Shown here: piece after piece, positions 22,398 to 38,423 of the stretch
How the letters are laid out: each line of letters begins with the position of its first letter
Numbering within the stretch: position 1 is the first letter of the stretch
The notes under the pieces: generated by a model
The model's input: only the letters and a program-made list of their open reading frames with translations
What the model was told of the DNA's origin: nothing
Database searches by the model: none
Origin: a virus
Length of the DNA: 64,000 nucleotides
Virus record (IMG/VR): IMGVR_UViG_3300036770_004723
Span: 186,001 to 250,000 of that record
Direction: 5' to 3' (one strand)
Program-made: the position numbers and the translations under genes

Positions 22398-22705
22398 AAG
22401 ATATTATTTTAGGTATCGATCAACATGGATTGGATCCTTTTAAGAATGATTTAATGGATGAAATCTTTAATATAACTGAGTGTGATACTGTTACTGTTGG
22501 TGCAAAATATGTCAGTAATCCACAGCTAATGAGTTATGACTACTTAGGTAATGTTGAACTTTACTTTATTATTCTTATGTATAACGGTCTAGGCAATAGC
22601 TTTAAACTAGAGCGGGACATGACTATACTCGTACCTAAGGTTGAAAGAGTTAAAGAAATTTTAAGTAGGCGAACTGTAGCGAAAATTCAAAGGATAAGTA
22701 TATGA
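22394..22705 (+). CDS. Baseplate wedge protein, gp53-like
   Basis: The 103-aa product contains YDYLGNVELYFIILMYNGLG followed by a short strand ending ILVPKVERVKEIL. This matches the layout of gp53/LysM-like baseplate proteins, in which a loop with N precedes a hydrophobic IP strand. It has four-base ATGA overlaps with both neighbours, so it is translationally coupled to the gp48- and gp27-like genes. It is shorter than T4 gp53. Confidence 0.6.
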   Translation: MKDIILGIDQHGLDPFKNDLMDEIFNITECDTVTVGAKYVSNPQLMSYDYLGNVELYFIILMYNGLGNSFKLERDMTILVPKVERVKEILSRRTVAKIQRISI

Positions 22706-24615
22706 TCGGGCAAAGCAACAGCGGTGTACGTGTAAGAATTAAAATAAATGATAAAGACCTGCCGCCTGCTAATGATTTCTTTCATAGTTTTTATATTTAT
22801 TATGGCTTTGGTTATAAAGTTCCGACACTTTCACTTACAGTCATAGACAAAAATAAATTGCTGACTGGCCCATTTTCTTTAGTTGATGGATCCAAAATAA
22901 CACTTATCTACGGTGTTTCCTCAAAGCCAGATCGTGAATTATCTTTTAGTTTGATCTCGGCTAAGCCTACACAATCAGATTCTGGTGTAATATTTAATAT
23001 TATTGCTGTAATGGGTAAGCCGAATTATATTTTCGGTGCCCAGCAAGAAAGTAAGCGCGGGACAAGTGTAAACGCTATTAAGCAAATCGTTGAAGCTAGC
23101 GGTATGGTATATGACGGAGATGTTCAAACTGATGATAGCATGACATGGCTTAACGTAGGTAAAAGCCGTATGTTATGGATTCAGGACATACTCGCTAAAT
23201 CATACAAAGACGACAATAGTTTAGTTGTAGGTATGCAAGATCTGGATAACACGTTTAAAGTACGTGAAATGTTTGAACTTGCCCAATCCAAAGAACAATA
23301 TGAAGTATTTATAGGTGATTTTCCTCAGAAGAAATTTAAAGTCAATGAATTTTTTGCCTCACAGTACAAACCATTTAACTACTCGGGTATTTCAAATTTA
23401 CTATTTAATTATGGGCATGTACGTACTCAGCAAAAAATTGACGGCACTATTGATAAGTATGATACAGTCAATCCACCTGTTTTAGGCGATGGCCTTTCCA
23501 TTAATCAAAGTATTCGTGATAGTTTTACCTATAGTTCTAGCCGTACATCTAAATACTACGATAGCGGCATAAGTGAAAAACTTAATGGATCTAATGCTCA
23601 TAAAAAATACTATGAAGCAGCTGTACTGAATAATCGCTATCTTACCCTTTTTAATTCAGGTATTCAGATTAATATAATGGGGCAAGTTGAAATTCCTTTA
23701 TTCAGTGTGATCAAGGTCAATGCTGTAAATCAATACCAAACACTAGAAACCCAAGAAAATTTAAATGGTAATTATATAATAGGATCTGGAATAGTTGCGT
23801 GTGTAGGAAAAGAGTATAGAGAATTTTATAGTTTATACCGACACTATGTAAACGAAAGCGGCAACACTCCACTGTTAGGATCTAAAAATGCGGATCCTAA
23901 CAGTAAAAAACCTGCTATGGAAAAAGCTAATAGTGTTGTAGACTACTCTGACCCAGTGAAAGATCAATCATTGAGCAAGCAAGCAGCTAGCTTAGCTTCT
24001 GGCGTAAATAACGCAGCACAGAATTTAGTTCAAGGACAGGACAATATAAAAAGTGGATTTGATAAATTTATAGACACAGCTATGCAGCAGATTTCAGATC
24101 TTGAAAAATCTTTTGAAGCAGAATCTAGTTCTTTTGGTTTTGCAGAACTTGCAGCTAAATACACAGCAGGCAAAGACCAGCTTATGAATTTATTAAATGA
24201 ATTCAGCTTTGCCAAAAGTATTTTAGAGAATTGTGGCAAACTGAACCCTTTAGAAAGTTTGGTTATTGATCTGGTTAAATTAAATTTAAATGGACTAGTC
24301 GATTTGATTGTAGATCGTATAGGTCGAGTAGAAGGTTTGCAAGCTAAACTGCTAAATGAAATAAATAGTTTGCTTGCTTTAGGTGATTTGAATGGAGGTT
24401 ATTTGAGTGCGCCTCAGCTTAATGTTAGCTGCCGTACTTTTGCACAAGACCATTTGAATGCTGCACTTAGGGATCTATATCCAGATCAGTGCATTGATAA
24501 TTTTAACATGAATAGATTAAGATTCCCTTTTAATAAATTGACTAGACTTCGACGACTGCTGATGTCTTTATTAAGAGATCTTTTATGTGCCTTAGGTGAG
24601 AATTCAGAAATATGA
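22702..24615 (+). CDS. Baseplate central hub (gp27-like)
   Basis: The 637-aa product begins with a VRVRIKINDKDLPPAND tube-like domain. It has a SRMLWIQDILAKSYKDDNS segment (about 150-168) and FKVREM typical of gp27/VgrG-type hub folds, a second beta domain near 340-390, and then an added helical C-terminal domain (about 400-637). The hub forms a trimer connecting tube and spike. The following gene encodes the spike, overlapping by four bases. The helical extension is not part of T4 gp27. Confidence 0.7.
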   Translation: MIGQSNSGVRVRIKINDKDLPPANDFFHSFYIYYGFGYKVPTLSLTVIDKNKLLTGPFSLVDGSKITLIYGVSSKPDRELSFSLISAKPTQSDSGVIFNIIAVMGKPNYIFGAQQESKRGTSVNAIKQIVEASGMVYDGDVQTDDSMTWLNVGKSRMLWIQDILAKSYKDDNSLVVGMQDLDNTFKVREMFELAQSKEQYEVFIGDFPQKKFKVNEFFASQYKPFNYSGISNLLFNYGHVRTQQKIDGTIDKYDTVNPPVLGDGLSINQSIRDSFTYSSSRTSKYYDSGISEKLNGSNAHKKYYEAAVLNNRYLTLFNSGIQINIMGQVEIPLFSVIKVNAVNQYQTLETQENLNGNYIIGSGIVACVGKEYREFYSLYRHYVNESGNTPLLGSKNADPNSKKPAMEKANSVVDYSDPVKDQSLSKQAASLASGVNNAAQNLVQGQDNIKSGFDKFIDTAMQQISDLEKSFEAESSSFGFAELAAKYTAGKDQLMNLLNEFSFAKSILENCGKLNPLESLVIDLVKLNLNGLVDLIVDRIGRVEGLQAKLLNEINSLLALGDLNGGYLSAPQLNVSCRTFAQDHLNAALRDLYPDQCIDNFNMNRLRFPFNKLTRLRRLLMSLLRDLLCALGENSEI

Positions 24616-25415
24616 GACCTACTTCAGAATTATTAAGATCTTTAGAACGTAAAGGACTAGATCCTACAACTCCACACAAGGCAATTGTAGTAGATAATAA
24701 CGATCCTGATAAACTATTCAGGATCAAAGCACGTATTCCAATATTGCAGGATGCAATTGAAGATAATGATCTACCTTGGTTGATTCCAGAAGATAACATA
24801 CATCCGAGAGGTCTAACTGGCGGTGTGTTAGGTCATTCAGCAAGTGTTTGGGGTACTCCAAAACGTGGATCTTGGGTCAGTGTTTATTATCGGCATGACG
24901 GAGATCCGCATAATGGATCTTATTCTGTTCGTGTTCCATTTGACAAAGAAACACTGGCTGAAGAATTCGAAGTAAACTATCCAGATAGATTAGGCTATGT
25001 ATTACCTAGCGGCATGTATTTTGTAGTCGATGAAAGAACAAAAGAAGTTTTTGTTAACTTTCCAGGTGATTATCACATGACTGTTTTTGGTGATGTTTTC
25101 CAATCTGTTATAGGTAACTACCAAGTACATGTAGCGAAAGATGTAAGTGCTATACCAGATTACTTAAAAGATAATGTAAGTAGTCTTCTTGAAAGCTTAG
25201 GGCCTCAGGCTAAAAAGCGCATTAAATTTAAAGGATTGGGTAAAACAGACAGCGGCAACATGCACTTTACTGTTGAAGGTGATTATACGCAAAAAGTCTT
25301 GGGCGATCATATACTTCAAATACAAGGTAAACAACGTGTCGAAGTACGTGGTAGTGTGGACTACGAAGCACAGTCACAATTCAAGATAAACGGTTCACGT
25401 ATTGATCTGGCTTAA
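24612..25415 (+). CDS. Central spike (gp5-like OB fold plus beta-helix, no lysozyme)
   Basis: The 267-aa product has an OB-like domain at about 20-110 (HKAIVVDNNDPDKLFRIKARIP, WLIP, RGSWVSVYYRHDGDPHNGSY), as in gp5 and VgrG. It ends in repeating short strands (GDYHMTVFGDVFQSVIGNYQVHV, then GDYTQKVLGDHILQIQGKQRVEV) that form a triple-stranded needle, with final SRIDLA. Unlike T4 gp5 there is no lysozyme insert, and no other lysozyme appears in the window. It pierces the outer membrane at contraction. Confidence 0.75.
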   Translation: MRPTSELLRSLERKGLDPTTPHKAIVVDNNDPDKLFRIKARIPILQDAIEDNDLPWLIPEDNIHPRGLTGGVLGHSASVWGTPKRGSWVSVYYRHDGDPHNGSYSVRVPFDKETLAEEFEVNYPDRLGYVLPSGMYFVVDERTKEVFVNFPGDYHMTVFGDVFQSVIGNYQVHVAKDVSAIPDYLKDNVSSLLESLGPQAKKRIKFKGLGKTDSGNMHFTVEGDYTQKVLGDHILQIQGKQRVEVRGSVDYEAQSQFKINGSRIDLA

Positions 25416-25425
25416 GGAATTAATT

Positions 25426-26199
25426 ATGAAGTTACTTGAAACCACATTTAAAATTAATGTATTTGAAACTATAGGTGAACCTGCTGGTATCTTCATGGAA
25501 TTTCCATATCAACCTGCTAAAACAGCTGAATACTTTAGGCAGTACGTTATTTTACCTGCTTTAAATGTATATGAACGTATTGAAGTTGACTTAGGCGATA
25601 TAGCTTATTCTGCAAGTTGGTTAATAGAGGCTTTTGCTGGCTTAATAAACTATGGAATACTTACACTTGAAGAATTTAAAAGAAAAGTATTTATTACTTG
25701 TCAAGGGCACCATTTCTATTCTGTACAAATCAATCAATACGTAGCACAAGCCATTTATAATTCTAAAATTTATATTGAACGGAACAAAATAAATTTTGAT
25801 TTAGGTACTACATCTAAATGTAATCTTTTTACCGATACATTAAAAGAATCAAAAGAAACCGTTGTATTAGTATACGAGAATTTTGAAATACCTAACCCAA
25901 ACTTAAATATTTTATGTTTAGAGCTATGTGGTTCAGTTACGGCTTTACGGCAATTAGTCGATGAAAACGATGTTTTAGTTTATCCCTTACGTGCTAGTTT
26001 GCGCAGCATATACAGCTTAGAGAATAAGGATTTTCGAGAATTAATGTGTAGATCTGGAATGACATTTAACATGTTTAGCTGTGATCGAGATAACGTAGAA
26101 CAAGAACTAAATGAAATCTGTACGCACACAGATCACAGAGTTCGGGTGTTACGTAGATTGCTGCGCACTCCTGAATTAACTATCTTCGATGAAAAATGA
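25426..26199 (+). CDS. STAS-like (DUF4325-type) protein
   Basis: ATG 25426 is used (RBS AAGGAATTAATT); an earlier frame start would run into the spike gene. In the 257-aa product, residues 50-90 read RIEVDLGDIAYSASWLIEAF, then GLINYGILTLEEFKRKVFI. This resembles STAS-like DUF4325 domains (DLxxV...SSxLxEAFGGL). The family is often tied to signalling or unknown roles. The C-terminal half is not recognised. Finding it directly after the spike is unexpected. Confidence 0.5.
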   Translation: MKLLETTFKINVFETIGEPAGIFMEFPYQPAKTAEYFRQYVILPALNVYERIEVDLGDIAYSASWLIEAFAGLINYGILTLEEFKRKVFITCQGHHFYSVQINQYVAQAIYNSKIYIERNKINFDLGTTSKCNLFTDTLKESKETVVLVYENFEIPNPNLNILCLELCGSVTALRQLVDENDVLVYPLRASLRSIYSLENKDFRELMCRSGMTFNMFSCDRDNVEQELNEICTHTDHRVRVLRRLLRTPELTIFDEK

Positions 26200-26542
26200 T
26201 ATGTATTTAGATATAGCTATAATAACCACGGAACCCACTGAACTTCAGTGTTTAAACAAAAAGATTGATAGTGCCTTAAAATTAGAAGGACTTAATTGGG
26301 GTGCTTCCAGAATATTCATATTAAACACTGACCCAAGTATGTTGAATGTAACGCAAAAATTTCACAGGACAGAATTTGCAGGAATAGTTTGGGCCAAAGA
26401 TATAAAACAATTATATTCTTGCACCTATTTTCTATACGCAAGTAGTATAAAAGACAGACATAAATTTAATGCCTTGAAAAAGAAATTTAAAAATTTAAAA
26501 CGCTCTAAGTTTTTAAATTTATCCGACACTAATTTAAGCTAA
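26189..26542 (+). CDS. Hypothetical protein
   Basis: The 117-aa product overlaps the previous gene by 11 bases; an alternative ATG at 26201 lies just past that stop. The N-terminal half looks like an alpha/beta start (YLDIAIITTEPTE) and the C-terminus is strongly basic (KKKFKNLKRSKF). No domain is recognised. Confidence 0.6.
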   Translation: MKNDMYLDIAIITTEPTELQCLNKKIDSALKLEGLNWGASRIFILNTDPSMLNVTQKFHRTEFAGIVWAKDIKQLYSCTYFLYASSIKDRHKFNALKKKFKNLKRSKFLNLSDTNLS

Positions 26543-26567
26543 TGTTGGATTTTATAGGTATAGATTT

Positions 26568-26915
26568 ATGACCAGAGTAGAATTAAACGATTTCTGCTTG
26601 TTGTTGGTCAACAAGTCACTTGATGATTGCACAAACTTTAAAGGAATATCCTTACTGCATTACGCTAGTAATTTTAATGGGTATGATTATGGATGCCATA
26701 TTCATTATTATGGAAAATACAATGTTGTTGAATTCACTTGTGATGGCGTTGATGCTGATACAGTATATTTTGAATATGATCGAAACGAGTATGATCAGGC
26801 TCTAAAACATTTCATGGATATCATTGCAAACTATGAATCTGACTTAGATACCATTTACATCAGAAATCAAATATCTTGCTTATATGATAAGGAAGTTTTT
26901 GATGCAAGATCCTAA
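26568..26915 (+). CDS. Hypothetical acidic protein
   Basis: The 115-aa product has an NGYDYGCHIHYYGKYNVVEF strand region and an acidic helical C-terminus. No family is recognised. It overlaps the start of the GNAT gene by 14 bases, so the two are probably co-translated. Confidence 0.6.
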   Translation: MTRVELNDFCLLLVNKSLDDCTNFKGISLLHYASNFNGYDYGCHIHYYGKYNVVEFTCDGVDADTVYFEYDRNEYDQALKHFMDIIANYESDLDTIYIRNQISCLYDKEVFDARS

Positions 26916-27267
26916 TGTAGATCATTTTATATCGAAAATGCGAAAGCACAGAGAAGTATGTCTTATGGACATAATGCCTTCTTACCTAAGGCAAGTTAAT
27001 GGAGTGTTCTATAAAAGCTGTGTACTTGAAAGAATATATGTTCAACCTAAATTTAGATGTAAAGGTGTAGGCAAGGCTATGATTTTTCGCCTTGCCTCTT
27101 TTGCAGATAAAAACCAATTCCTTGTCCTATTAAATGATTCGACAGCTTACGGATCAGACCCTAAGAGATTAAGAAAATTTTACATTGATATGGGATTTGT
27201 GTTGGCAAAAAATCTAGGTATACACGATTACACTCTATGCAGAATACCTATTAAAAGGCAGCAGTAA
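26902..27267 (+). CDS. GNAT-family N-acetyltransferase
   Basis: ATG 26902 fits the RBS (AGGA, 8 bases away) better than 26884. The 121-aa protein has the GNAT acetyl-CoA site at residues 48-60 (VQPKFRCKGVGKAM, with RxxGxG) and the downstream RKFYIDMGFVLAKN pattern of motif B. It transfers an acetyl group from acetyl-CoA to an unknown target. Phage GNATs may modify host proteins or counter defences, but nothing here identifies the substrate. Its stop lies within a terminator. Confidence 0.75.
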   Translation: MQDPNVDHFISKMRKHREVCLMDIMPSYLRQVNGVFYKSCVLERIYVQPKFRCKGVGKAMIFRLASFADKNQFLVLLNDSTAYGSDPKRLRKFYIDMGFVLAKNLGIHDYTLCRIPIKRQQ

Positions 27268-27281
27268 TGCTGCTTTTTGCG
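27254..27281 (+). terminator. Intrinsic terminator overlapping the GNAT stop
   Basis: A GCAGCA/TGCTGC stem (27258-27263, 27268-27273) with a GTAA loop is preceded by A's and followed by TTTTT. The stop codon (27265-27267) is in the loop region. Confidence 0.8.
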
Positions 27282-27326
27282 TTTGTACAGTATAAAACTA
27301 TAATTTATATAGGTAAGTACGAAACT
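27275..27326 (+). promoter_or_regulatory. Putative promoter, copy of the one near 5764
   Basis: TATAAT at 27299-27304 lies in TATAATTTATATAGGTAAGT. It matches the string upstream of the gene at 5820, including the TTTTGC 18 bases upstream and the terminator directly before. Its recurrence makes it a likely late promoter. Confidence 0.5.
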
Positions 27327-27347
27327 TATAACCAAGAGGATTTTTAG

Positions 27348-28256
27348 ATGAACACACCTTATTTAGACAGTTTGAGTGCAGGCAATTCTTATTTATCTGC
27401 GGACGGCCTCGCTAATATCGAGAACATTGCAGAGTTAAGAAAAGATATTGTTTCATATGTAAAGACCATGAAGCCTCAGGCAGTTGTTAAAAAAGCTGCT
27501 GGTGGTTTTGCAGTTACTATTGTTGTGCCTGTTAAACAACGCAAAGAAGTAACTACTTTAATGGCAGTAGTAAAGCCATTTGCTACAGGTAAAATTGCTG
27601 TAGCTGGTGAAGCAGGTAAATTCACAATGAGTTTTGTTTGTGAAGATAAAGCCACTGCTGAAAAAGCTGTTGAAACTTACGGCCGTTCTGCTAAAGTTGT
27701 CTCACCTATTATGTACTACACTGTACCAAAACGTAGTAAGGCAGTTAAATATAGTGCAGTAAAAACAAAAGCTAAAGAACCGGCTTATATGAAAAAACGC
27801 GCTATTAATATTAGCGAACGGACTTCAGTAAGCGAAGCCGTTACACAATTGCTTCCTGTTTATGCTAAAGGAGTTCTGTCGGCGGCTCTTGAAAAGAAAA
27901 TGATGACAGCTGTTTCTGCGTTAAAAAGTCATATTAACAAAGTACCAAAAGTCAAAGAAACTGCTGGTGCCCAAGCTGATAAAAATCGCGCAGTTAAACA
28001 AAAAGAATATGCAGGTTTAGCTAAAGAAGTTCGTGCCTTGTTAGAAGAATCCGGTATTAAAGCCGCTAATATTGTATTAGGTACTTCAATTGCAGGTCAA
28101 ACACTTTACGTTAAATTGGCATCAGGTAAAGTAATGACGGTTGGACTTTCTTCTGTAGAGAACTTCAACAAAGCTAAAAAAGCTGCCGCTGAAGCTTATA
28201 CTGAAGATGAACTGGATGATGCAGATGAAAAACCTGCACGTCGCCGTCGTAGTTAA
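27348..28256 (+). CDS. Probable virion protein with basic C-terminus
   Basis: The 302-aa Ala/Lys/Val-rich protein follows its own terminator-promoter pair and ends in a hairpin, so it is a transcription unit of its own, consistent with a well-expressed structural protein. It has two beta-rich regions (FAVTIVVPVKQR; ANIVLGTSIAGQTLYVKL), a central helical part with SVSEA, and an acidic-then-basic tail (EDELDDADEKPARRRRS). The family is unknown. Confidence 0.65.
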   Translation: MNTPYLDSLSAGNSYLSADGLANIENIAELRKDIVSYVKTMKPQAVVKKAAGGFAVTIVVPVKQRKEVTTLMAVVKPFATGKIAVAGEAGKFTMSFVCEDKATAEKAVETYGRSAKVVSPIMYYTVPKRSKAVKYSAVKTKAKEPAYMKKRAINISERTSVSEAVTQLLPVYAKGVLSAALEKKMMTAVSALKSHINKVPKVKETAGAQADKNRAVKQKEYAGLAKEVRALLEESGIKAANIVLGTSIAGQTLYVKLASGKVMTVGLSSVENFNKAKKAAAEAYTEDELDDADEKPARRRRS

Positions 28257-28265
28257 TTAAATATA

Positions 28266-28296
28266 GAGGTCACTGTATTTACCGTCCAGTGACCTC
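28266..28296 (+). terminator. Strong hairpin after the 302-aa gene
   Basis: A perfect 10-bp stem, GAGGTCACTG/CAGTGACCTC (28266-28275, 28287-28296), has an 11-base loop. The following GACTCGTTTATT is not a clear T run, so it may be a processing or stability element rather than a terminator. Confidence 0.5.
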
Positions 28297-28317
28297 GACT
28301 CGTTTATTGAGGTAAAA

Positions 28318-28770
28318 ATGAAGCTTAATATACATTTATGTGGTTTTATTTCTGTTTCTCAAGGAAGTAATATTGATGTAAGTTACGCATTTAAAAAAGC
28401 AATAAAAGCTTATATTAATAACCAAAGAATTTTACCTTCGAAAATTGAAAATGGATTAGAGGCAGATGCTGAAGATACTTTAGTCTTAGGTATTTTAAAA
28501 TGTATTCCATACGTCTTACAAGATATTAATTCAAAGATTGTTATTTTTGAAACAAAAGACGGAACTAAACTTAAATCTTGCGTTATATCTGACTCACGTA
28601 TTGTATATGACAATGCAAGTGCTTTCCGTATAGTACCTAAGAACGATGTAATTACACAAGAAAACAAGCCTTTTGTTTATAAAGGCTTAGGTAACAAGAG
28701 CAGTATCTACTTTCCTTATGTTTCTTTTACACATCAAACTTTAGAAAAACATATTAAAAAAATAAGCTGA
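28318..28770 (+). CDS. Hypothetical protein with late-type N-terminus
   Basis: The 150-aa product begins MKLNIHLCGFISVSQGS, a longer variant of the tag. The rest is alpha/beta, with YVLQDINSKIVIFETKDG and an Ile/Val-rich beta core. It has a good RBS (TTGAGG). No family is recognised. Confidence 0.6.
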   Translation: MKLNIHLCGFISVSQGSNIDVSYAFKKAIKAYINNQRILPSKIENGLEADAEDTLVLGILKCIPYVLQDINSKIVIFETKDGTKLKSCVISDSRIVYDNASAFRIVPKNDVITQENKPFVYKGLGNKSSIYFPYVSFTHQTLEKHIKKIS

Positions 28771-28780
28771 GGTAGATAGA

Positions 28781-29545
28781 ATGGATAAGCTTGCTGCCAT
28801 TAAATTTATTATTAACGGTATTACCGGAAATAAAGAATGTTTACCTGATTACACAAAAGATTTGGATACTCAATTTTTAGAGTTTACGGTCAAGGCTTTA
28901 ATAGAAAATGACCACAGGAAACTTAATGTGTTTCTAAATCTGGATAATGATAGTGTAGTCGGTTCTTCTGTAGTTCAAGAGTACGATGCAGCATGTGAAA
29001 ATATGTTTTTACTTGACTCAAATCGTATATTAGATTTAATGTCAGATCCAGAATACGCTTATCCTAAATTTTTTACACAACTTCATCTTAATAATGTACC
29101 AATTAAGTCAGATCAACATTTATATAAAGTTTTAAGAACCTGTGTTTGCTTATACCGACACGAATGTAGTGATGTACTGCATACACTTGGCTCAGGTAAA
29201 TATTTAAATCAAAATGCTTTAGATGTATTTAATATTCTCAATACAATAACATCTGATATTCGTACACTAATAGATTTATCCTTAGAACATGGATACTCTG
29301 TATCTGTTTATGAGCTTATAGACAATGATTCAGACTATGACCGTTATGTTGTTTGGCCTACCTGTAATAACATGCGTATGGTAGAGCAAAATGGTAAAGG
29401 TTATCTATATTCTATGGATAAAAATTCTGAAATATTTGATTTCAGGAACTTTGGAAAAGAAGTCTTTAGGCATTCAGTTCCAGCAAAATATAAAGAAGTA
29501 CAAAGATACTTTCTTTCAGAAATATTAACATTACTATCTTATTAG
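28781..29545 (+). CDS. Hypothetical protein
   Basis: The 254-aa helical protein has a Cys-rich patch near the middle (LRTCVCLYRHECSD) and an acidic N-terminus. No known domain is recognised. It is the first of a short series (this gene, the Acb1-like gene, the MmcB-like gene) with close spacing that may be one accessory module. Confidence 0.6.
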   Translation: MDKLAAIKFIINGITGNKECLPDYTKDLDTQFLEFTVKALIENDHRKLNVFLNLDNDSVVGSSVVQEYDAACENMFLLDSNRILDLMSDPEYAYPKFFTQLHLNNVPIKSDQHLYKVLRTCVCLYRHECSDVLHTLGSGKYLNQNALDVFNILNTITSDIRTLIDLSLEHGYSVSVYELIDNDSDYDRYVVWPTCNNMRMVEQNGKGYLYSMDKNSEIFDFRNFGKEVFRHSVPAKYKEVQRYFLSEILTLLSY

Positions 29546-29556
29546 GAGAATCAAAC

Positions 29557-30057
29557 ATGTCAGGAACATACTTAGCAGTAAAGCCTACAGCACTTTCACT
29601 CAATGACATTAAGAAAATTCAATTAGCCATTAATATTCAAGATCCTATCCCTAAAGAAGAAATTCATTGTACTCTCATGGCCAGCAAAGAAAAAACAGGT
29701 TCAGGTTATTCACCTAATCCAGATATTGTATATTCTGCTTCTGTAACAGGTTGTGATATTTTAGGTGAGAAAGGTTCAGGTTGGCAAGCCTTGATATTAA
29801 AGTTGCACTGTCCTGCATTACAAAGACGCTTTAATTTGGCGAAACACCGAGGCATGGAACACAGTTACCCTGAATTTCTGCCGCATGTAAGTTTAGCCTA
29901 TGAAAAAGATAATGATCTTGAAGGCTACTTGGTAGAGCTTCGAGAATATCTTCAAAAGTCTCCGCAGTTAACTATTGAATTAAGTTACGAGTATATGGAG
30001 CCATTTAACGATACTTGGATCGAAGACGAGATCAAAAAAGATGAATCGAAAGTCTGA
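29557..30057 (+). CDS. Acb1-like 2H phosphoesterase (anti-CBASS candidate)
   Basis: The 166-aa product has two 2H-type motifs: H37-x-T39 (EIHCTLMAS) and H110-x-S112 (LPHVSLAYE), about 73 residues apart. The FLPHVSLAYE end and the later IELSYEYMEPFNDTW resemble what I recall of T4 57B/Acb1, which hydrolyses cyclic oligonucleotides to disarm CBASS defence. The alternative is another 2H member (2'-5' RNA ligase-like). It has a good RBS (TAGGAG) and overlaps the next gene by 17 bases. The family is fairly certain; Acb1 activity is inferred. Confidence 0.7.
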   Translation: MSGTYLAVKPTALSLNDIKKIQLAINIQDPIPKEEIHCTLMASKEKTGSGYSPNPDIVYSASVTGCDILGEKGSGWQALILKLHCPALQRRFNLAKHRGMEHSYPEFLPHVSLAYEKDNDLEGYLVELREYLQKSPQLTIELSYEYMEPFNDTWIEDEIKKDESKV

Positions 30058-30676
30058 GACACTTCGAATTAAAAACGCTGCAACTTATTACATGGTGGAT
30101 AAGAACTACTCAGTTTATGATGAAGTAGGTTTGAAATCTTGTAATAAGTCTAGCAGATTAAGAGCAGACTTAATAGGCTTAAATATAAAAGCTGATATTT
30201 TACTGATTGAAGTTAAAAGCTGTTGGCAAGATTTCGTTACCGATACTAAGTGGGAAAACTATTTAAGTTTCTGCAATAAAATGTACTTTGCTTTATCAGA
30301 AAGTCTTTATGAAAGTAAGCATAAAGACTTTCTACGAAAAAGACTTTCTGAATTTGGCATAGGTATTCTGTTGGTTAATTCCAAGGGAAATGTTAAAGTC
30401 GTTCTAAACGCTAAGAAAAGAAAAGTAGATGGTAAGACACGGCGCTGGCTAGTAACCAAGCTTGCTTGGCGTGGTGGGTATTGCAAAGCTACTTCAGATA
30501 GATCTATGCGATTTAATACGAATCTTACAGATGATAACTCTAGCCTTTTAGAATTTTTGACTTGGCCTAAATCAGCTAGAGCAATCTATGTCAGTAAATA
30601 CCCTAAATGCGGTTACAAAAAATATATTAACTACCCAATTCTTGACGATAAGTTTATAGTTGGTTCTGTGGAGTAA
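30041..30676 (+). CDS. MmcB-like PD-(D/E)XK nuclease-family protein
   Basis: The 211-aa product carries the MmcB signature at 41-83: RADLIGL (D43), IEVKSCWQDF (E57-V-K59, D64), DTKWENYLSFCNKMYFAL. MmcB-family proteins belong to the PD-(D/E)XK nuclease superfamily and are linked to DNA repair. In a phage it could act on host or own DNA. The rest (90-211) is a basic domain. Overlap with the Acb1-like gene suggests coupled expression. The RBS is weak. Confidence 0.75.
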   Translation: MNRKSETLRIKNAATYYMVDKNYSVYDEVGLKSCNKSSRLRADLIGLNIKADILLIEVKSCWQDFVTDTKWENYLSFCNKMYFALSESLYESKHKDFLRKRLSEFGIGILLVNSKGNVKVVLNAKKRKVDGKTRRWLVTKLAWRGGYCKATSDRSMRFNTNLTDDNSSLLEFLTWPKSARAIYVSKYPKCGYKKYINYPILDDKFIVGSVE

Positions 30677-30678
30677 GT

Positions 30679-31062
30679 ATGAAAACAGTTGATGTTAGTG
30701 GTCAAAATTTCCTAAGAAGTCAATTTAAACAGTTGCAAAATATTAGTTTTATTTCGGTATACGGTAATAAAGTAATGGACTCCAGCATTTTGTCTGAGTT
30801 TAGGGGGAAAATACTTTTATTCGTTCCGTGTGTTCCAACAGCAGAAATAAAACAACTTACTAACTATGTTAAAAAACAAAACTTAATAAAAGATAAAAGC
30901 AAAATCCAGCTACCAGAAACAAAGAATCATGATCTGGATAAGATTTGCAGTAAATTCCAAAGAAATTCCGTATTCGAGATCATGGTTTTTATTGAAAAGT
31001 ATTCAGAAGACTTAGGTGACTACCAAGAATACCTATTTACAATTATGCTCAGGAAAAATTGA
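30679..31062 (+). CDS. Hypothetical basic protein
   Basis: The 127-aa alpha/beta protein has a hydrophobic strand (GKILLFVPCVPTAEIKQL) and a basic centre. No domain is recognised. It has an RBS GGAG and is directly followed by the next ATG. Confidence 0.6.
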   Translation: MKTVDVSGQNFLRSQFKQLQNISFISVYGNKVMDSSILSEFRGKILLFVPCVPTAEIKQLTNYVKKQNLIKDKSKIQLPETKNHDLDKICSKFQRNSVFEIMVFIEKYSEDLGDYQEYLFTIMLRKN

Positions 31063-31611
31063 ATGAAAATCTTAATTAGCCTATCAAACGAAAAAATAAA
31101 TAAGAGTAGCGCAACGTTCGGTCCACTTACTGTAGTAGCGAATTTTGCTAACAAAAATATGTACAGTTGTACATGGGCAAATAAGATGAAAAATTCATCT
31201 ACTATATTGACCAAACTTGGATTTAAAAGCTATAGTGTCGTAGTAACTGGTCCAAATTTGCCTGAAAGTTCTCAAGCTTTTAAAGATTTAACTTCAGCTG
31301 CTTTAGGTTTCTTTAGTAATTGCAGTACAGTGCGTTTAGAAGACCTTAATATTGTTAATGGCAGGAAATGGGCAGCGGATTGGATCAAAAACGTAGAAAA
31401 TGTTTCTACGTTAAATGTACGTCTTGACATTAGAAGTAGAGAGCGCGACAATCTTCATATTCCTGTAACTGTAGGAACTGATGTTAAACGGCGCGGTGTA
31501 TTACTGTCTATTACTGAAATGAGTGCTAAATGCCGTGTAATGTTATTAAATGCGGATGGCAGCAATGGTAATGTTCTTGAATTGCCAAAAGATCAAATTT
31601 GGATTGAATAA
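31063..31611 (+). CDS. Tagged hypothetical protein
   Basis: The 182-aa product begins MKILISLSNEKINKSS, a clear example of the tag. The body is beta-rich (ATFGPLTVVANFA; IPVTVGTDVKRRGVLLSI). No known family. The tag suggests a virion-packaged protein. Confidence 0.65.
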   Translation: MKILISLSNEKINKSSATFGPLTVVANFANKNMYSCTWANKMKNSSTILTKLGFKSYSVVVTGPNLPESSQAFKDLTSAALGFFSNCSTVRLEDLNIVNGRKWAADWIKNVENVSTLNVRLDIRSRERDNLHIPVTVGTDVKRRGVLLSITEMSAKCRVMLLNADGSNGNVLELPKDQIWIE

Positions 31612-31620
31612 GGAATAGCT

Positions 31621-34428
31621 ATGTTTCCTATGGTGCAGCAGTACTTAAAAATAGTAAATGATTTAGGATTAGTTCCTTTCGTTTCTTTAAATACCTCTAA
31701 TCAAACTTCAGTTAGTGAAGTAAATTCTGTTAATAGATTGACCTCTGTAGAAAAAGACTCTAATAGTCTTTCATTTATACCTCAACTGTGTATCGATCAA
31801 GATACTGGATACATGAAAGATGATGTTACAGGCGTTTATTATACTTTAAATAGGCTTTATATAGGAACACGGCCTGTAACAGTTTTCTTAAAAGCTTTAG
31901 ATATAGATCCAGAACTAGCTTTACCTAGTCATTTAGTTTGCTCTGTCGGGTACAGTAAAAAACTAAATGAATGGGTTGCTTGGAATTTGACAGGTGCCGA
32001 TTCTTTTTGCAGTCGTGAGGCAGCAGTTTCCTGGGTAAATGAAACATCCAACGTAAACATTGATCGTTATTGTAGTCTTGATAAAATGTTTGCTAGTGCT
32101 GTAATCACATCTAGAGTATTTTTTAAAGCCTTGGATTGCTATTTTGGTAACATTACAGAATCCTTACCTGTAGCCGAATATAAAGAGCAGAATCTAGATA
32201 AAATTTTTGAACACATAGATCTCGATCTAGATAAAATTTTTGAAAACTGTAACGAAAAAGATTCAGGCGCGTTCAATGAAATGGTCGAGCCTTTACTAGC
32301 TTTATTTAAACAAAAAGACGTAGAAAAATCTAAATTTATCTCAGATACTGCTAGGTCTGCAAATCCATTGTACTACCGTATAAGTGGAGAACATAGACAA
32401 CATAATAGAAATATGCCTAAACAAGCTTTGACTGGTCAAAGACACAGCGGCGCACATTATCAACATAATGTACCAACTGATTCAAACCTAACCAAACCAC
32501 ATACTGGAATAAAAATAGGAATTAAAAGAAGTGGTGATCATGTCCAACATAATCATACTGGACCTACTTTTAGTTCTTTGAATAATGAAAGTTTTGTATC
32601 AGAAAGTGCCGAAGATCCAACCAAATATGAATGGTATCGTTATGTTCCAGTTAATGGCCGTAGTATTAGCCTTAAAGGATATCATAAAGAATTTGATCAG
32701 GCCAGTATAGATGATACAGAAGTTTACGGTATTAGACAAATTCGAGGCAAAGAAGAATTCTACTTGACCTTTGGTAATGCTCAAGATTTCGGTATACTTT
32801 TCAGGGTTCCTACTGCTTTGGTTAATCGCGCTATAAAAAATAGCAAAACATATAAAGGTAAGGTTCCTTTAGGTAGAGCAGTAAAGCCTGTTGATGTAAA
32901 AGAAGTGAAGCCTTCTCAGGTTAAAGAAAAAGTAAATAAAATAGTACCAAAAACTGAAAAGCCTTTAACTATAAAAGAACGTCGTGAGGCAGAAAGGCAA
33001 AGACTTTTAGAAGAATCTAAAAATAAGCGACTTCAACCTCAAGTACGCGACCAAGTTATACGTCCCGATGGCAAGATTAATTTAAGTGACATTGATGCCA
33101 TTAATGTTAAATCGCGCGATGTTACATATTTAGGTCTTTACCAACAAAGCATATTCTCAGACGATTACCATGTAGTAATTAATGACGAACGCGATGAATT
33201 ATATTCAAACATAATGAGTGAAATAACTCGCGGTAAGAATAGTAATCCTATAGCGTATTTATTTCGCGTTAGAACAAGTCAAGATTGGGTAGCCCCATAT
33301 CTAGGTGTATCCGCTAATAAGATGCGTATGAACAGTGCTATTGTTAAACGGATAATTGCTTCAAATAAACACGAAGTAATTAAAGGCATTAAAAACGTAG
33401 CAAACTTTGATGAAAAGCCTGAGCTACCTAAAGCAAGTAAGTTCAAACGTGCTGAACCTATTTATTACGGCAATAACTTTGCCGTACTTTCTGAAATAAA
33501 ATCTGCGATTCTCCAAGGCTATTTCACTAAAGCATTCAAAGTAACCGATATTAAAAATCGCAAATCTGTTACTATTGACGATGAAAAAGCCAAGAACGAT
33601 CCGCACTTTGGTATTGAGTCTACGGATACAGATGAATTTATGTTAGTGCTTTCTGCACAAAACAATAATCCGTTCTATCAACATGAAGCAGACGAGATAC
33701 TACAAAGACTTTCACGTATTTATGGACCTACTATTAGAACTGTAGTAAAAGAAAGTAAAACAAGTGAAGGTAAGTTAATGATGTTCGTGGTTATACGTTT
33801 GGCCTTGAAAAAGGTCAGCGATGAACACTTACATAGAAGTAAAGCACTGCATGATCTTGTAAGAAATAATCTAAACAATAAACAGCAAGTGCAGAAAGGC
33901 AGCGATTTTGTTGAAAAACTGGACACATTAAAATCTGAATTCAACAAACTTTACAAGAAATATGAACAAGAAAAGATTCAGGTATCTGCAAAACGAAGCC
34001 ATGAAGAATTGAACTTAAAAACTGAGATCGACAAACTTAAGTTACAACTTCAAGCCAAAGGCACAGCTAATGTAAGACCTATTCTGGATAAGCACGATAA
34101 ACTTGTTCAACAATTAAGTAAATTGCCTGCTAAATACGACGACATGTTAAAAACGGTTGAAGACATTTATTCGGAAGAAATATCTAGGCACCAGCGAGAG
34201 ATTCGTGTTTTAACAAAATCACATTCGTTGAACTTTAAAAATCAATTGATCTTTAATATGCCTGTATACAAAGCCAAATTTGGCCAAACCTTGGTTAGTG
34301 TGGAGGTTGTTGACTACAATATACCTGACGGCACTGTCGGAGTTCGTATTGTACGTGGCGGTGATAGAACAGTCCATTATATAACAAACTTATATTCATT
34401 TTTCGATGAAGAAAAAGTTTTCCCTTAA
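31621..34428 (+). CDS. Large putative virion protein with SGxHxQHN repeats and an SES junction
   Basis: The 935-aa product has an N-terminal domain (1-245). Three copies of SG-x-H-x-QHN follow at 255-262, 276-283 and 304-311, then FVSES at 325-329. A basic domain, a linker (about 410-480), and a long coiled coil near 760-870 come after, and the C-terminus is a beta domain. LDKIFE occurs twice (192-197, 203-208). If cleaved at FVSES, the His-rich N-terminal part would be separated from the rest. The histidine repeats might bind metal. No known family; position suggests a head or tail component. Confidence 0.6.
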   Translation: MFPMVQQYLKIVNDLGLVPFVSLNTSNQTSVSEVNSVNRLTSVEKDSNSLSFIPQLCIDQDTGYMKDDVTGVYYTLNRLYIGTRPVTVFLKALDIDPELALPSHLVCSVGYSKKLNEWVAWNLTGADSFCSREAAVSWVNETSNVNIDRYCSLDKMFASAVITSRVFFKALDCYFGNITESLPVAEYKEQNLDKIFEHIDLDLDKIFENCNEKDSGAFNEMVEPLLALFKQKDVEKSKFISDTARSANPLYYRISGEHRQHNRNMPKQALTGQRHSGAHYQHNVPTDSNLTKPHTGIKIGIKRSGDHVQHNHTGPTFSSLNNESFVSESAEDPTKYEWYRYVPVNGRSISLKGYHKEFDQASIDDTEVYGIRQIRGKEEFYLTFGNAQDFGILFRVPTALVNRAIKNSKTYKGKVPLGRAVKPVDVKEVKPSQVKEKVNKIVPKTEKPLTIKERREAERQRLLEESKNKRLQPQVRDQVIRPDGKINLSDIDAINVKSRDVTYLGLYQQSIFSDDYHVVINDERDELYSNIMSEITRGKNSNPIAYLFRVRTSQDWVAPYLGVSANKMRMNSAIVKRIIASNKHEVIKGIKNVANFDEKPELPKASKFKRAEPIYYGNNFAVLSEIKSAILQGYFTKAFKVTDIKNRKSVTIDDEKAKNDPHFGIESTDTDEFMLVLSAQNNNPFYQHEADEILQRLSRIYGPTIRTVVKESKTSEGKLMMFVVIRLALKKVSDEHLHRSKALHDLVRNNLNNKQQVQKGSDFVEKLDTLKSEFNKLYKKYEQEKIQVSAKRSHEELNLKTEIDKLKLQLQAKGTANVRPILDKHDKLVQQLSKLPAKYDDMLKTVEDIYSEEISRHQREIRVLTKSHSLNFKNQLIFNMPVYKAKFGQTLVSVEVVDYNIPDGTVGVRIVRGGDRTVHYITNLYSFFDEEKVFP

Positions 34429-34432
34429 AATA

Positions 34433-34460
34433 GTGGGGAATTAATTCCCCACAAATCTTT
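34433..34460 (+). terminator. Terminator-like palindrome before the HDOD gene
   Basis: A perfect 20-base palindrome (34433-34452, GTGGGGAATT and its complement) just after the stop codon is followed by AAATCTTTTC. It likely reduces read-through from the 935-aa gene. Confidence 0.6.
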
Positions 34461-34475
34461 TCAGGAATTACTGCT

Positions 34476-35255
34476 ATGCCTGAGTCTTCTTTATTGCATA
34501 TACTATACACAAAAATAGAAAATAAAACTTTAACTTTACCTACTTTGCCTGATGTTGCTGTTAAAGTAATGTCTATTATTGACGCACCTGAAATAAATTC
34601 TAGCGATCTGTGTCGTGCTATAAGTAGAGACAGTGGCATATCCATTAGACTGATAAAGCTTGCCAATTCCGCACATTTCGGCCGCAGCATTAAGATAACT
34701 ACACTACAGCAAGCTGTAGTTCGTTTAGGTTTCAGGCAAGTAAGATCTCTGGTGATTGCTATGGCTATGGAGCAATTATTTATAAGTACAGACTCTGTTA
34801 TACATAACAAATTGCAAAGTATATGGCATGATTCAATTAGAATTACTTCTACAGCAATGGCCTATGATTTTATAATGCACAGAGGTAAATACAGCGATAC
34901 TCTTATGCTGTTAGGTACTACATGCAGACTTGGTATGCTTACTGTACTAACTGAAATCGAAAAAACATTTAGCGCCGATATATTCCCAAAGGTTGATTAT
35001 ACAAATTTAACTATTATTGAAAAACCTATACTTCTATCTCTATTTAAGCATTGGGAATTTCCTCAAGAACTAATTAATATACTAGTTAGTTATTTTGACC
35101 GTGCTGCTGTTTGTCCGCAATCTTGTGGTTTAATTTATGCAGATAAATTTGGAGATAAAAAATTTGAAGAATGTTCTGAGTTGGTTGAATTAGATAAAGA
35201 TATATTTGATAAGATATCAGAACTAGCTAAACAATTTAATAGTATTTTGAGGTAA
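34476..35255 (+). CDS. HDOD-domain protein
   Basis: The 259-aa product matches the HDOD domain from about residue 18: TLPTLPDVAVKVMSII, then LCRAISRDSGISIRLIKLAN, SAHFGRSIKITTLQQAVVRLG, and RQVRSLVIAMAMEQLF. HDOD is a metal-free relative of the HD domain, common in bacterial signalling and usually without phosphodiesterase residues. It lacks the late-block tag. Its role in a phage is unknown; interference with a host second-messenger circuit or virion assembly are both open. It is followed 2 bases later by the topoisomerase gene. Confidence 0.8.
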   Translation: MPESSLLHILYTKIENKTLTLPTLPDVAVKVMSIIDAPEINSSDLCRAISRDSGISIRLIKLANSAHFGRSIKITTLQQAVVRLGFRQVRSLVIAMAMEQLFISTDSVIHNKLQSIWHDSIRITSTAMAYDFIMHRGKYSDTLMLLGTTCRLGMLTVLTEIEKTFSADIFPKVDYTNLTIIEKPILLSLFKHWEFPQELINILVSYFDRAAVCPQSCGLIYADKFGDKKFEECSELVELDKDIFDKISELAKQFNSILR

Positions 35256-35257
35256 CT

Positions 35258-36928
35258 ATGAAAAGCAATTTACTGTCTATTTCCGCAGTATCAAAACAAT
35301 CCACATTAGCATTTATTAAAATTATTTCCGCTGCTTCTGTTGCATTTATGGAAAATTCGCCTTTATCTTCTTCTATTAAGTCTGATTTAAGATCGTGGAA
35401 TGCTGATGCTTCTGAATTCATCAAAAGATTTAATTTAGATAAAAAAGCTTTCTCCCGTATCATATCACAGCTGCAACTCGATAAAGTTAATCTTGTTGAT
35501 GAAATAGGTGACGTAATGGTAGGTGTGCGTGAAGCACATAGATCAAAAGAACTTATCAAAGAACTAGATCTGAGTAAGCTTCATTTGGATTTTTTAAAAT
35601 GCTTGATAAGTGTTACTTTAGGCGGCAGTGAAACAGCTGTTAAGAACTTATATAAGAATATAAGTAAGTTAGGTGATCCGAAGTTAAGTGCTTTATTTAT
35701 GCAGGAAACTGAATTAGATCAAAGTGATTTAGTTGCAGAACTCTCAAGATTTTGTAAAAATGTTTTCAAAAAGCCCGAACAAGATCTTAATGTAGAAGAT
35801 AAGAATAAGTTAAAGGCTAAAAATCCTGAACTCTATAAAGAATATTTAAAATTGTTACGTGATATTAATGAAGTAACCAAACAAGCTGTTAGTCAATTTG
35901 TACGTAACTCTGGCCAGCAATTAGTAAAAGCCACGGAACTCGTTAGATATTTGAAGACTAATAAAATCCGATCTAAAGTACCTGAAGGCTTTAATGGCTG
36001 GATAGATGAAACAGGTGCTTATTACAACACAAATAAAGTAAAGCTAGAAGGTGCCATTACAGGCAGATTGGAAGCAAATCCAAAATATGATCCTACAACA
36101 GATGATACATACGTATTCTTGCATTATCCACTATTTGGATCAGGGCAGCCTCAACGTATCTACACTGTTAATTACAGAAAAGGTAAAGTGAGTAAAAAAT
36201 TTAATGCTGTAGGTGCATTAATTAAAGATTTACCTGCGGCACGTAAAAAATGGTTACATGAGTTAAAAACTGGAAAACACAATGAAGCAGATACTGTTGC
36301 AGCCTTAATTCTTGAATTGATTTATGAAACTTCTGCACGTATCGGAACAGCAGGACAAAGCGGTCAAGGTATTAGTACACTATTAGTCAAAAACTACACA
36401 GGTAGAGGCCAAGGTTATTTTACACTTAATTATTTAGGTAAGAGTGGTGTAAAACAGAATCATAAAATTCTGACTAATCGCATTGAAACCAAACTTTTAA
36501 AAGAACTGTTAGAATCATTGACTACAGGTAAAAAACCTAATGATTTGATCATGACTGTGAATAAAGGAAGAACCGAAAAACACATTAACGGTACTTACGT
36601 TAATAAATACCTTAGATCTTTAGGTGTTGATCCAAGTGTTACCCTTCACAAATTCCGCCATGCCCGAGGATCTATTGTTGCTCAAGCTCAATTAGATAAG
36701 GCTCCGTCATTCAAAAATGCTTCGGAAGCAGAAGTAAATAAATGGTTTATTGAAGCAATGAAGAAAGTCGGATCTGAGTTAGGTCATGTTAGCGGCGATA
36801 AAGTCACTGCCACTACTGCAATCCAAAACTATATTGATCCGCAGTTAATTAAAGATTGGTTTGATAAAGTTGGTGTAAGACCAGGCAGTGTTATTCAAAA
36901 TGCACTTAATAAGGCAGGTAAGGATTAA
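35258..36928 (+). CDS. Type IB topoisomerase-like protein with tag
   Basis: The 556-aa product has the catalytic set expected of type IB topoisomerases and tyrosine recombinases in order: R361 (ETSARIGT), K395 (YLGKSGV), R467 (HKFRHARGS), H510 (SELGH) and nucleophile Y525 (QNYIDP). The spacing and the KSGV turn favour topoisomerase IB over an integrase. The N-terminal 230 residues are helical and unfamiliar, starting MKSNLLSISAVSKQS like other tagged proteins. It would relax supercoils without ATP. The tag suggests it may travel in the virion. A palindrome overlaps the stop codon. Confidence 0.75.
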   Translation: MKSNLLSISAVSKQSTLAFIKIISAASVAFMENSPLSSSIKSDLRSWNADASEFIKRFNLDKKAFSRIISQLQLDKVNLVDEIGDVMVGVREAHRSKELIKELDLSKLHLDFLKCLISVTLGGSETAVKNLYKNISKLGDPKLSALFMQETELDQSDLVAELSRFCKNVFKKPEQDLNVEDKNKLKAKNPELYKEYLKLLRDINEVTKQAVSQFVRNSGQQLVKATELVRYLKTNKIRSKVPEGFNGWIDETGAYYNTNKVKLEGAITGRLEANPKYDPTTDDTYVFLHYPLFGSGQPQRIYTVNYRKGKVSKKFNAVGALIKDLPAARKKWLHELKTGKHNEADTVAALILELIYETSARIGTAGQSGQGISTLLVKNYTGRGQGYFTLNYLGKSGVKQNHKILTNRIETKLLKELLESLTTGKKPNDLIMTVNKGRTEKHINGTYVNKYLRSLGVDPSVTLHKFRHARGSIVAQAQLDKAPSFKNASEAEVNKWFIEAMKKVGSELGHVSGDKVTATTAIQNYIDPQLIKDWFDKVGVRPGSVIQNALNKAGKD

Positions 36929-36938
36929 TCCTTACCTG
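36915..36938 (+). repeat. Perfect 24-base palindrome over the topoisomerase stop codon
   Basis: Arms CAGGTAAGGATT and its complement span 36915-36938 and include the TAA stop. No T run follows, and the next gene starts 10 bases later with a weak RBS. It may therefore act as a translation or processing control, or as a protein-binding site. Confidence 0.5.
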
Positions 36939-36948
36939 AGTATAAACT

Positions 36949-37215
36949 ATGAAACTAACCTCTATTTCTTTTACAAAAAAATCCACTATTTCCTTAGATG
37001 CTAAAACATTAATGACGGAAATTGATCGCGCACTAGCACGAGTTGATAAGAATATAGCCGTAGAAAGAAGAAAAATGCAGATATTGAAATCAAAATCGGA
37101 AGTGAGCGATTCAGCTAATTTATCTTTGCATGAATTGCTTGGTAACAAACAAGTTCTTTTAAGTGTTAAACTGGCCATTGAGAAAAATGATTTTAAAGAT
37201 TTAAAATCTATATAA
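36949..37215 (+). CDS. Small tagged coiled-coil protein
   Basis: The 88-aa product begins MKLTSISFTKKSTIS (tag) and is otherwise a charged helix (IDRALARVDKNIAVERRKMQ). It lacks a clear RBS; a hairpin lies just upstream, so translation may depend on coupling to the topoisomerase gene. The function is unknown. Confidence 0.6.
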   Translation: MKLTSISFTKKSTISLDAKTLMTEIDRALARVDKNIAVERRKMQILKSKSEVSDSANLSLHELLGNKQVLLSVKLAIEKNDFKDLKSI

Positions 37216-37235
37216 GGATCTTATAAGGTAAATCT

Positions 37236-37727
37236 ATGCACACTCTTGGAACTAATACTGTATCTTCTGCTGTTTCTATTGCATTAAGGACATCAAATAA
37301 CATAACTGTGGCCACTAATAACGCAGTTCCTATAGTTTGGGGAGAGCGTGATGGTAAACCTGATTTAAAAAGATTCACACATTCCTTGGGATCATTTACT
37401 GTAAGTGTTAATCGTAAAGGTAAATATAAAATAAGTGTGAAACTTAACGGCAGGCTTACAGGCAGTTCATTGAGTGTGCAGAACAGAACGGACAATGTTG
37501 TTGTTTTCTTAGCAATCAATAATCGGACATACAAACCTTCTTATCTATATGCAAGTCCTTACCAACAAAGTGGTGGATATTTTACTGTGAACGGAGTCAT
37601 TGATGAAATAAGTTTGAATGCCGGTGATTTCGTTGCACTTTATATATACCGTCTTGTAACAACAGGAACAATATCAATTGCAGCTTCTGAAGCTGTGATG
37701 TCAATAGAGCAGACTTCAGAGGAATAA
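37236..37727 (+). CDS. C1q/TNF-like beta-sandwich virion protein (candidate)
   Basis: The 163-aa product has the layout of C1q-like heads in phage fibres: GKYKISVKLNGRL, then VVVFLAINNRTYKP, then LNAGDFVALYIYRLVTTGTISI and a final MSIEQ strand. Such domains form trimers at tips of head or tail fibres and bind surface ligands. There is no shaft or attachment segment, so it might join another protein. The assignment rests on pattern only. Confidence 0.45.
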   Translation: MHTLGTNTVSSAVSIALRTSNNITVATNNAVPIVWGERDGKPDLKRFTHSLGSFTVSVNRKGKYKISVKLNGRLTGSSLSVQNRTDNVVVFLAINNRTYKPSYLYASPYQQSGGYFTVNGVIDEISLNAGDFVALYIYRLVTTGTISIAASEAVMSIEQTSEE

Positions 37728-37730
37728 GAA

Positions 37731-38423
37731 TTGATTTCAATAAAAAATAGCTTTACGCAAACTGTTAGATCTGTTCCTTTAAATGTAGCTGTACCGAAAC
37801 CTGAGGCAGACATCACAGTAGATGGCAGACCTGACTTACCTAACTACGTTGAAACAATAAATTGGAAATTTCCTAACCTTAATGTATACAGCACAGGCGA
37901 TGAATATACTGATATTGTATTTCCACACAGTCAAATCATAAACAAAGCAGTGTTAGATCAGTACCGACTTCACTACGCAAAACTGCTTTATATTAAACGT
38001 AGTTTCGAGCAAGCTAATTTAATGCAGCAAGAAGCAACTGGCTACCATACAATTTCTGACACTACTACATTAATACAAAAAGATGTTTACAGGATGAAGT
38101 ATGATGATGCCATTGAATACGCAATTAGATACGAACAGGCACAAAGTGTAAATGGAGATGTAAGCGAGGTATATGTACCTGAACTACTTGCTAACGAAAG
38201 TTCACTGGTAAATCAAGATCCTTACGAGTTAGCTATTTCAATTATTTCGAATTACAATGCCAGTGATAGTAGCCTAAGATCTTATTTTGGTAAAATTGAG
38301 GGCATTAGACGTTTGTTGAAACGTAGAATCTTAGCTGCTGAAACTTTAGATCAGCTAAAAATCATTGAATGGGCGGATTGGCCTATCTATGAACCTACAG
38401 CACTTGTAGATATGGAAGGTTAA
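37731..38423 (+). CDS. Hypothetical protein, TTG start
   Basis: The 230-aa product starts at TTG 37731 (RBS CAGAGG), 3 bases after the previous stop. It has an N-terminal PLNVAVPKPEADITVDG loop, a PNYVETINWKFPNLN segment and a helical C-terminus. No known family. Pairing with the C1q-like gene suggests a minor virion component. Confidence 0.55.
   Translation: MISIKNSFTQTVRSVPLNVAVPKPEADITVDGRPDLPNYVETINWKFPNLNVYSTGDEYTDIVFPHSQIINKAVLDQYRLHYAKLLYIKRSFEQANLMQQEATGYHTISDTTTLIQKDVYRMKYDDAIEYAIRYEQAQSVNGDVSEVYVPELLANESSLVNQDPYELAISIISNYNASDSSLRSYFGKIEGIRRLLKRRILAAETLDQLKIIEWADWPIYEPTALVDMEG

Follow-up and report, generated by a model that had tools for sequence, protein, structure and literature searches.

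The window analysed here is a stretch of 64,000 nucleotides, bases 186001 to 250000 of the 286,584-base virus record IMGVR_UViG_3300036770_004723. Inside a long run of plus-strand genes, it holds two overlapping open reading frames (ORFs), the first of which, acb1, encodes a protein of the Acb1 family of 2H phosphoesterases and the second an MmcB-like PD-(D/E)XK protein. The features of the pair are:

29557..30057, plus strand: acb1 gene, 2H phosphoesterase of the Acb1 family, 166 aa, ATG start (PF23474, PDB matches, mapping onto T4 Acb1, AlphaFold model)
30041..30676, plus strand: gene for an MmcB-like PD-(D/E)XK protein, 211 aa (PF06319, D43/E57/K59 motif, fold nearest 3dnx)
30041..30057, plus strand: frame overlap of the two genes, 17 nt, with possible translational coupling

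An AGGAG sequence lies about 9–13 nt upstream of the acb1 ATG at 29557, and the ATG of the MmcB-like gene, at 30041, falls within the last 17 nt of acb1, whose stop ends at 30057. Upstream in the run are genes for tail tube-like, tape-measure-like, and baseplate hub-like proteins, and downstream are genes for an HDOD-domain protein and a topoisomerase IB-like protein. A first-pass annotation, made from the sequence alone, had placed both ORFs at these positions, had noted their overlap, and had pointed to the motifs HCT, HVS, FLPHVSLAYE, and SYEYMEPFNDTW in the acb1 product; the ORFs, the overlap, and the motifs are all present.

The acb1 product matches the Pfam Acb1 family, PF23474, with 84 bits (E 1.1e-23, cut-off 27), residues 3–156 covering positions 2–143 of the 144 in the profile, and the same family is matched by all eight members of alignment A6, which consists of the query and seven proteins from viral contigs. 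When all PDB sequences were searched with phmmer at E values up to 10, solely Acb1 entries were returned (7t26, 5.7e-11; 9q2g, 1.4e-4; 9q2y, 9e-4). The AlphaFold model, made with eight aligned sequences, has a mean predicted local distance difference test score (pLDDT) of 85.7. Foldseek placed Acb1 chains at ranks 1–5, and VIA-align gave Z scores of 17.4 for 9q2g, 17.1 for both 7t26 and 9q2y, and 16.8 for 7t27, with root-mean-square deviations (rmsd) of 2.1–2.9 over 137–148 residues; absence of an entry from the VIA-align list is not taken as evidence. The likeness to Acb1 that the annotation had noted is thus borne out by sequence profile, matches to solved structures, predicted fold, and the residue comparison with T4 Acb1 given below. 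The gene is a new, divergent member of a known family, a sound and ordinary find.

Relatives of the acb1 product were found by tblastn in 1240 of 50,697 phage records, every one at less than 60% identity. A scan of viral contigs with the single protein gave no relative, and alignment A3 then gave 11 loci. Tested for a role in defence systems, neither product of the pair had a match in PADLOC; NCBIfam held nothing relevant, with one sub-threshold match for the acb1 product and none for the MmcB-like product.

The closest homologues found are those of the viral contigs L021 and L022, which are the nearest relatives of the window and do not differ from one another across the pair (60% identity to the window in acb1, L021), and those of L023 and phage NCTB (LT598654), at 34–38%; in all of them, as in the window, an MmcB-like gene of the same strand lies downstream of the Acb1 gene. 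Among characterized proteins, T4 gp57B and FBB1 Acb1 (7t26/7t27) have in common with the window protein the profile, the 2H fold, the HxT/Hx(T/S) tetrad, the glutamate that contacts adenine, the lid tryptophan, and a similar length (152 aa against 166 aa). T4 Acb1 is 28% identical to the window protein in the alignment. The gene neighbours differ as well, T4 acb1 lying with 57A and ipI and the window acb1 with the overlapping MmcB-like gene. The phosphodiesterase of Burkholderia phage BCSR5 (9q2g/9q2y, a molecule named Anti-CBASS protein Acb1) gives the top Z score (17.4, rmsd 2.7 over 148 residues), tied with the FBB1 entries, at 21% identity over aligned residues. With the window, the family gains a divergent Acb1 from a large metagenomic phage, its identity to the T4 protein being about 28%.

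The roles of residues Y12, H44, T46, W74, F107, H113, T115, E141, and W147 of T4 Acb1 are named by Hobbs et al. (PMC9117128), and each of these residues was verified at its position in the T4 sequence. In the same order, they align with Y5, H37, T39, L69, Y104, H110, S112, E148, and W154 of the acb1 product. The catalytic tetrad is kept as H37-x-T39 and H110-x-S112, the adenine-contact E148 and the lid W154 are kept with the same spacing as in T4, and Y5 and Y104 fit the base-stacking aromatics Y12 and F107. The comparison was made on a chosen set of loci with 29 rows, from which L049 was dropped because an unrelated ORF had been picked there; in all 28 sequences used, the window and T4 included, the HxT and Hx(S/T) motifs are present, and serine is usual at the fourth tetrad position among the jumbo-phage relatives. 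The query was itself a member of the alignment behind the Acb1 profile made in this work, so scores and mapping obtained with that profile lack independence, unlike the Pfam results.

Several observations weigh against taking the protein for an enzyme that clears the signals of the cyclic-oligonucleotide-based antiphage signalling system (CBASS). T115 is replaced by serine and F107 by tyrosine, both conservative changes, and the base-stacking W74 of T4 aligns with L69, a position that is leucine or methionine in several relatives, with W76 nearby. In the closest relatives, L021, L023, and phage NCTB, the lid tryptophan that the window has is missing, and in the NCTB protein the glutamate that contacts adenine is missing as well. 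The lid is effectively not modelled, residues 154–163 having a pLDDT below 50. Finally, 2H enzymes of the same fold also cleave other phosphodiesters.

The lid of FBB1 Acb1 is described as flexible before substrate binding in PMC9117128. Of the 28 sequences, 7 have tryptophan at the lid position (five T4-like phages, the window, and Vibrio phage GR7B), a count to be read with the uncertain C-terminal alignment of the remote members. Since the lid tryptophan is missing from the closest relatives and the glutamate from that of NCTB, substrate preference may vary within the clade. Both the adenine-contact and the lid residues are intact in the window acb1 but partly lost in its nearest relatives, which makes the clade a natural test set for the role of the lid.

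Taken as a whole, the evidence is best explained, and very probably so, if ORF 29557-30057 encodes an Acb1-type 2H phosphoesterase that clears the CBASS signal, next to an MmcB-like PD-(D/E)XK protein of the late block. The family, the fold, and the conserved catalytic, adenine-contact, and lid residues are directly established; the substrate, the chemistry, and the anti-CBASS effect are most likely those known from the biochemistry of the T4 and FBB1 proteins. By analogy with them, the acb1 product would bind adenine-containing 3′,3′-linked cyclic di- and trinucleotides and cleave them 3′ of adenosine without metal. The enzyme would put the cyclic di- or trinucleotide under strain and so bring the 2′-OH of the adenosine to attack its own 3′ phosphate, H37/T39 and H110/S112 serving as acid-base tetrad, to give a cyclic-phosphate intermediate and a linear product. 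The CBASS alarm signal would in this way be removed before the host effectors kill the cell.

CBASS signals are cut by T4 Acb1 and nine further recombinant Acb1 proteins (PMC9117128). In PMC12028318, Acb1 is listed among the core anti-defence genes of Schizotequatrovirus and reported as detected in viral particles, and an Acb1 match in phage Milchi is given in PMC11780129. Panoptes defence is described as unaffected by deletion of acb1 in T4 in PMC12657218.

The neighbouring gene was proposed in the first-pass annotation to encode an MmcB-like nuclease, and as a PD-(D/E)XK fold protein this is upheld. Its product matches the MmcB-like family PF06319 with 61.5 bits (E 9.5e-17, cut-off 22), its phage family is PHROG 2776, and the PD-(D/E)XK residues D43, E57, and K59 are the same in all 14 aligned sequences. 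The model (pLDDT 82.7) is nearest to 3dnx, the structure of the MmcB-like protein SPO1766 (Z 17.3, rmsd 4.8 over 143 residues), so that residues and fold are those of the known family. The Caulobacter MmcB is a PD-(D/E)XK endonuclease that protects from cross-linkers, according to PMC9578287. The window gene differs from known MmcB in its phage context, and its relatives adjoin thymidylate kinase and topoisomerase I genes. This PD-(D/E)XK protein of a jumbo-phage late block probably acts on DNA, and its gene is probably co-expressed with acb1.

Are the two genes partners? The annotation had called them coupled. The 17-nt overlap and the shared neighbourhood do exist and are seen again in related phages; a functional link is at most putative, as MmcB-like genes mostly occur without an adjacent Acb1 gene. 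One could nonetheless propose that acb1 and its MmcB-like neighbour work together as a two-gene counter-defence unit, joining signal destruction to DNA processing and translationally coupled through the overlap. We consider this unlikely. The overlap speaks in its favour, although overlapping genes are common in phage late blocks. Conservation of the order gives it some help, the genes being 1 nt apart in L021 and L022 and separated by one gene in L023 and by two in phage NCTB. Against this stands a scan with the Acb1 profile made here, which covered 32 MmcB loci from viral contigs (flanks up to 8 kb, shorter in several, such as L032, L046, and L052): Acb1 lies within the flank at 3 of the 32, two of these being identical over the pair, or at 5 if a weak match in L049 and the identical L050 are counted. 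That match, an Acb1-like ORF at L049:7337-7936 overlapping the MmcB start, has 28.5 bits (cut-off 27) and would speak for the unit. The ORF was not counted as an Acb1 enzyme because, by eye, the second histidine motif is absent, the first, HTT, being present; its product is perhaps an inactive or repurposed form of Acb1.

The named phages likewise argue against a two-gene unit. The MmcB gene stands directly before a thymidylate kinase gene, with no Acb1 beside it, in PaBG, Lu11, HRDY3, phB78 (Alexandravirus), JA11 (Salmondvirus), Yoloswag, and Afa-NA1, and topoisomerase I lies slightly beyond the kinase in the first three. A nudix gene precedes MmcB in phB78, JA11, Yoloswag, and Afa-NA1, a SprT-like gene does so in PaBG, and the neighbours are different again in BcepSaruman, GR7B, Motura, and PhiXhv-15. 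Acb1 itself is frequent in such genomes. Over whole records, a PF23474 match above the cut-off is present in 7 of 10 named phages that have MmcB (not in Lu11, HRDY3, or Afa-NA1), in 12 of 16 further records, those of L021–L023 included, and in all four of a third set, two of which lack MmcB; these sets overlap, phB78 being in the 16- and 4-record sets and the Yoloswag genome probably in the 10- and 16-record sets. In the seven positive named phages, the distance from Acb1 to MmcB, in record coordinates, runs from about 18 kb (BcepSaruman) to more than 100 kb. The survey thus finds that many MmcB-bearing jumbo phages have Acb1-family proteins elsewhere in the genome, often tens of kb away.

We infer that the slot just upstream of MmcB is a variable one beside a conserved backbone and that it is filled by Acb1 in the lineage of the window. 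The MmcB-like gene gives the impression of a long-established backbone gene in large phages and is not a demonstrated partner of acb1; the adjacency is a lineage-level trait, and the coupling claim is a lead and not a result. A literature search in a limited collection gave no paper with both Acb1 and MmcB. In contig G014, joining the record into a circle would bring an Acb1-domain protein to a place some 1.9 kb upstream of MmcB; this was considered and is not claimed, the record ends being undefined.

A second alternative concerns the enzyme itself. The acb1 product might be a 2H enzyme of the 2′-5′ RNA ligase or cyclic phosphodiesterase (CPDase) type, such as LigT, that acts on RNA ends and not on CBASS signals. 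The fold superfamily is indeed shared by RNA-end enzymes, yet the families that follow Acb1 in the structure comparison, namely cyclic phosphodiesterases, Usb1, and LigT, reach a Z of 12.6 at most (Arabidopsis CPDase 12.6; LigT 11.7 and lower), leaving the Acb1 structures, at 16.8–17.4, more than 4 units ahead. The label RNA ligase is carried by PHROG 755, the family of the acb1 product, and by many of its annotated relatives, but the record of T4 gp57B is labelled in the same way, although that protein is the founding Acb1 (PMC9117128). The score for 2_5_RNA_ligase2, 14.4 bits, falls under the cut-off of 27, against 84 for Acb1, and E148 and W154 agree with Acb1-specific residues. The annotation had named both the structure comparison and a closer match to RNA ligases as ways to settle the point, and both came out for Acb1; an RNA-ligase identity is disfavoured by profile and fold, and we regard it as very unlikely.

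A third alternative makes the pair a recent arrival. Against it, all window genes from 22394 to 38423 have relatives in the same order in L021, except 28781-29545, and identity to L021 is 60% in the MmcB-like gene, as it is in acb1. The order Acb1, MmcB, homologue of the 31063 gene, homologue of the 31621 gene is kept in L023 and in phage NCTB, at 34–39% identity for Acb1 and MmcB, and in NCTB an annotated thymidylate kinase gene follows beyond them. The G+C contents of acb1 (0.373) and the MmcB-like gene (0.343) are within about one standard deviation of the 87 longer ORFs (0.345 ± 0.027). This order, kept in L021, L023, and NCTB, indicates that the pair is old in the lineage and not a recent insert, and base composition agrees. 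The small module that, according to the annotation, might be inserted within the virion block is accordingly part of a long syntenic block, and a cassette recently inserted there, which the position of the pair between the tail and baseplate genes on one side and further late genes on the other might suggest, is extremely improbable and was rejected on synteny and ordinary base composition.

Two other genes of the run deserve comment:

26884..27267, plus strand: gene for a GNAT-like acetyltransferase (Acetyltransf_7, 28.9 bits, cut-off 27, a narrow pass)
31621..34428, plus strand: gene for a 935-aa protein with a weak Tad6-like stretch (type I Thoeris inhibitor family) at residues 68–121

The GNAT gene, described in the annotation as near, does exist, but it lies 2.3 kb upstream of acb1 with three genes intervening and shows no sign of belonging with it; its counterpart in L021 scores under the Acetyltransf_7 cut-off.

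The Tad6 profile gives the 935-aa protein 25.1 bits, below its cut-off of 27, and gives the syntenic homologues 136.1 bits in L023 and 142.6 in phage NCTB, both strong matches, and 17.7 in L021 (the loci concerned are window 31621-34428, L023:4660-7155, and L002:15242-17710). KMPT-N is matched in the homologues of L021 (30.7 bits) and NCTB (34.4), just missed in L023 (27.1; cut-off 28.9), and not found in the window protein at E 0.01. The first third of the 935-aa protein has a repeated histidine-rich peptide (SGEHRQHN, SGAHYQHN, SGDHVQHN), which is repeated in the L021 homologue too. The search of the limited literature collection found no paper on Tad6 with Thoeris.

One may also, though this is unlikely to be right, read the acb1 neighbourhood as a small late counter-defence cluster against nucleotide-signal immunity, composed of Acb1 against CBASS, the co-translated MmcB-like nuclease, and the Tad6-like protein against Thoeris, with products that may be packaged in the virion. 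In such a cluster, the MmcB-like nuclease might handle DNA damage from CBASS nuclease effectors, or attacked phage DNA, and the products, if packaged, would be active from the first minute of infection. Packaging is considered because of the Acb1 reported in Schizotequatrovirus particles (PMC12028318) and because of portal fusions. In the latter, at L059:1169-2983 and L061:2807-4792, an Acb1 domain is fused to the C-terminus of a portal protein (Phage_portal_3, 321 and 286 bits; Acb1, 80.3 and 54.9 bits, respectively), an arrangement that, at the level of sequence, suggests virion-borne Acb1.

Some further observations on these proteins may be recorded. The Pam3 portal (8hds) matches the Acb1 profile weakly, at E 0.14. 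A 394-aa protein at L083:793-1977 has its Acb1 domain confined to residues 237–389 (63.1 bits), its N-terminal part having no Pfam match. In the late block of the window, the HDOD-domain protein (34476-35255) scores 105 bits and is kept in L021 (43%), and the topoisomerase IB-like protein (35258-36928; PF01028, 64.1 bits, cut-off 23.7) has relatives in PaBG, NCTB, Lu11, HRDY3, and others.
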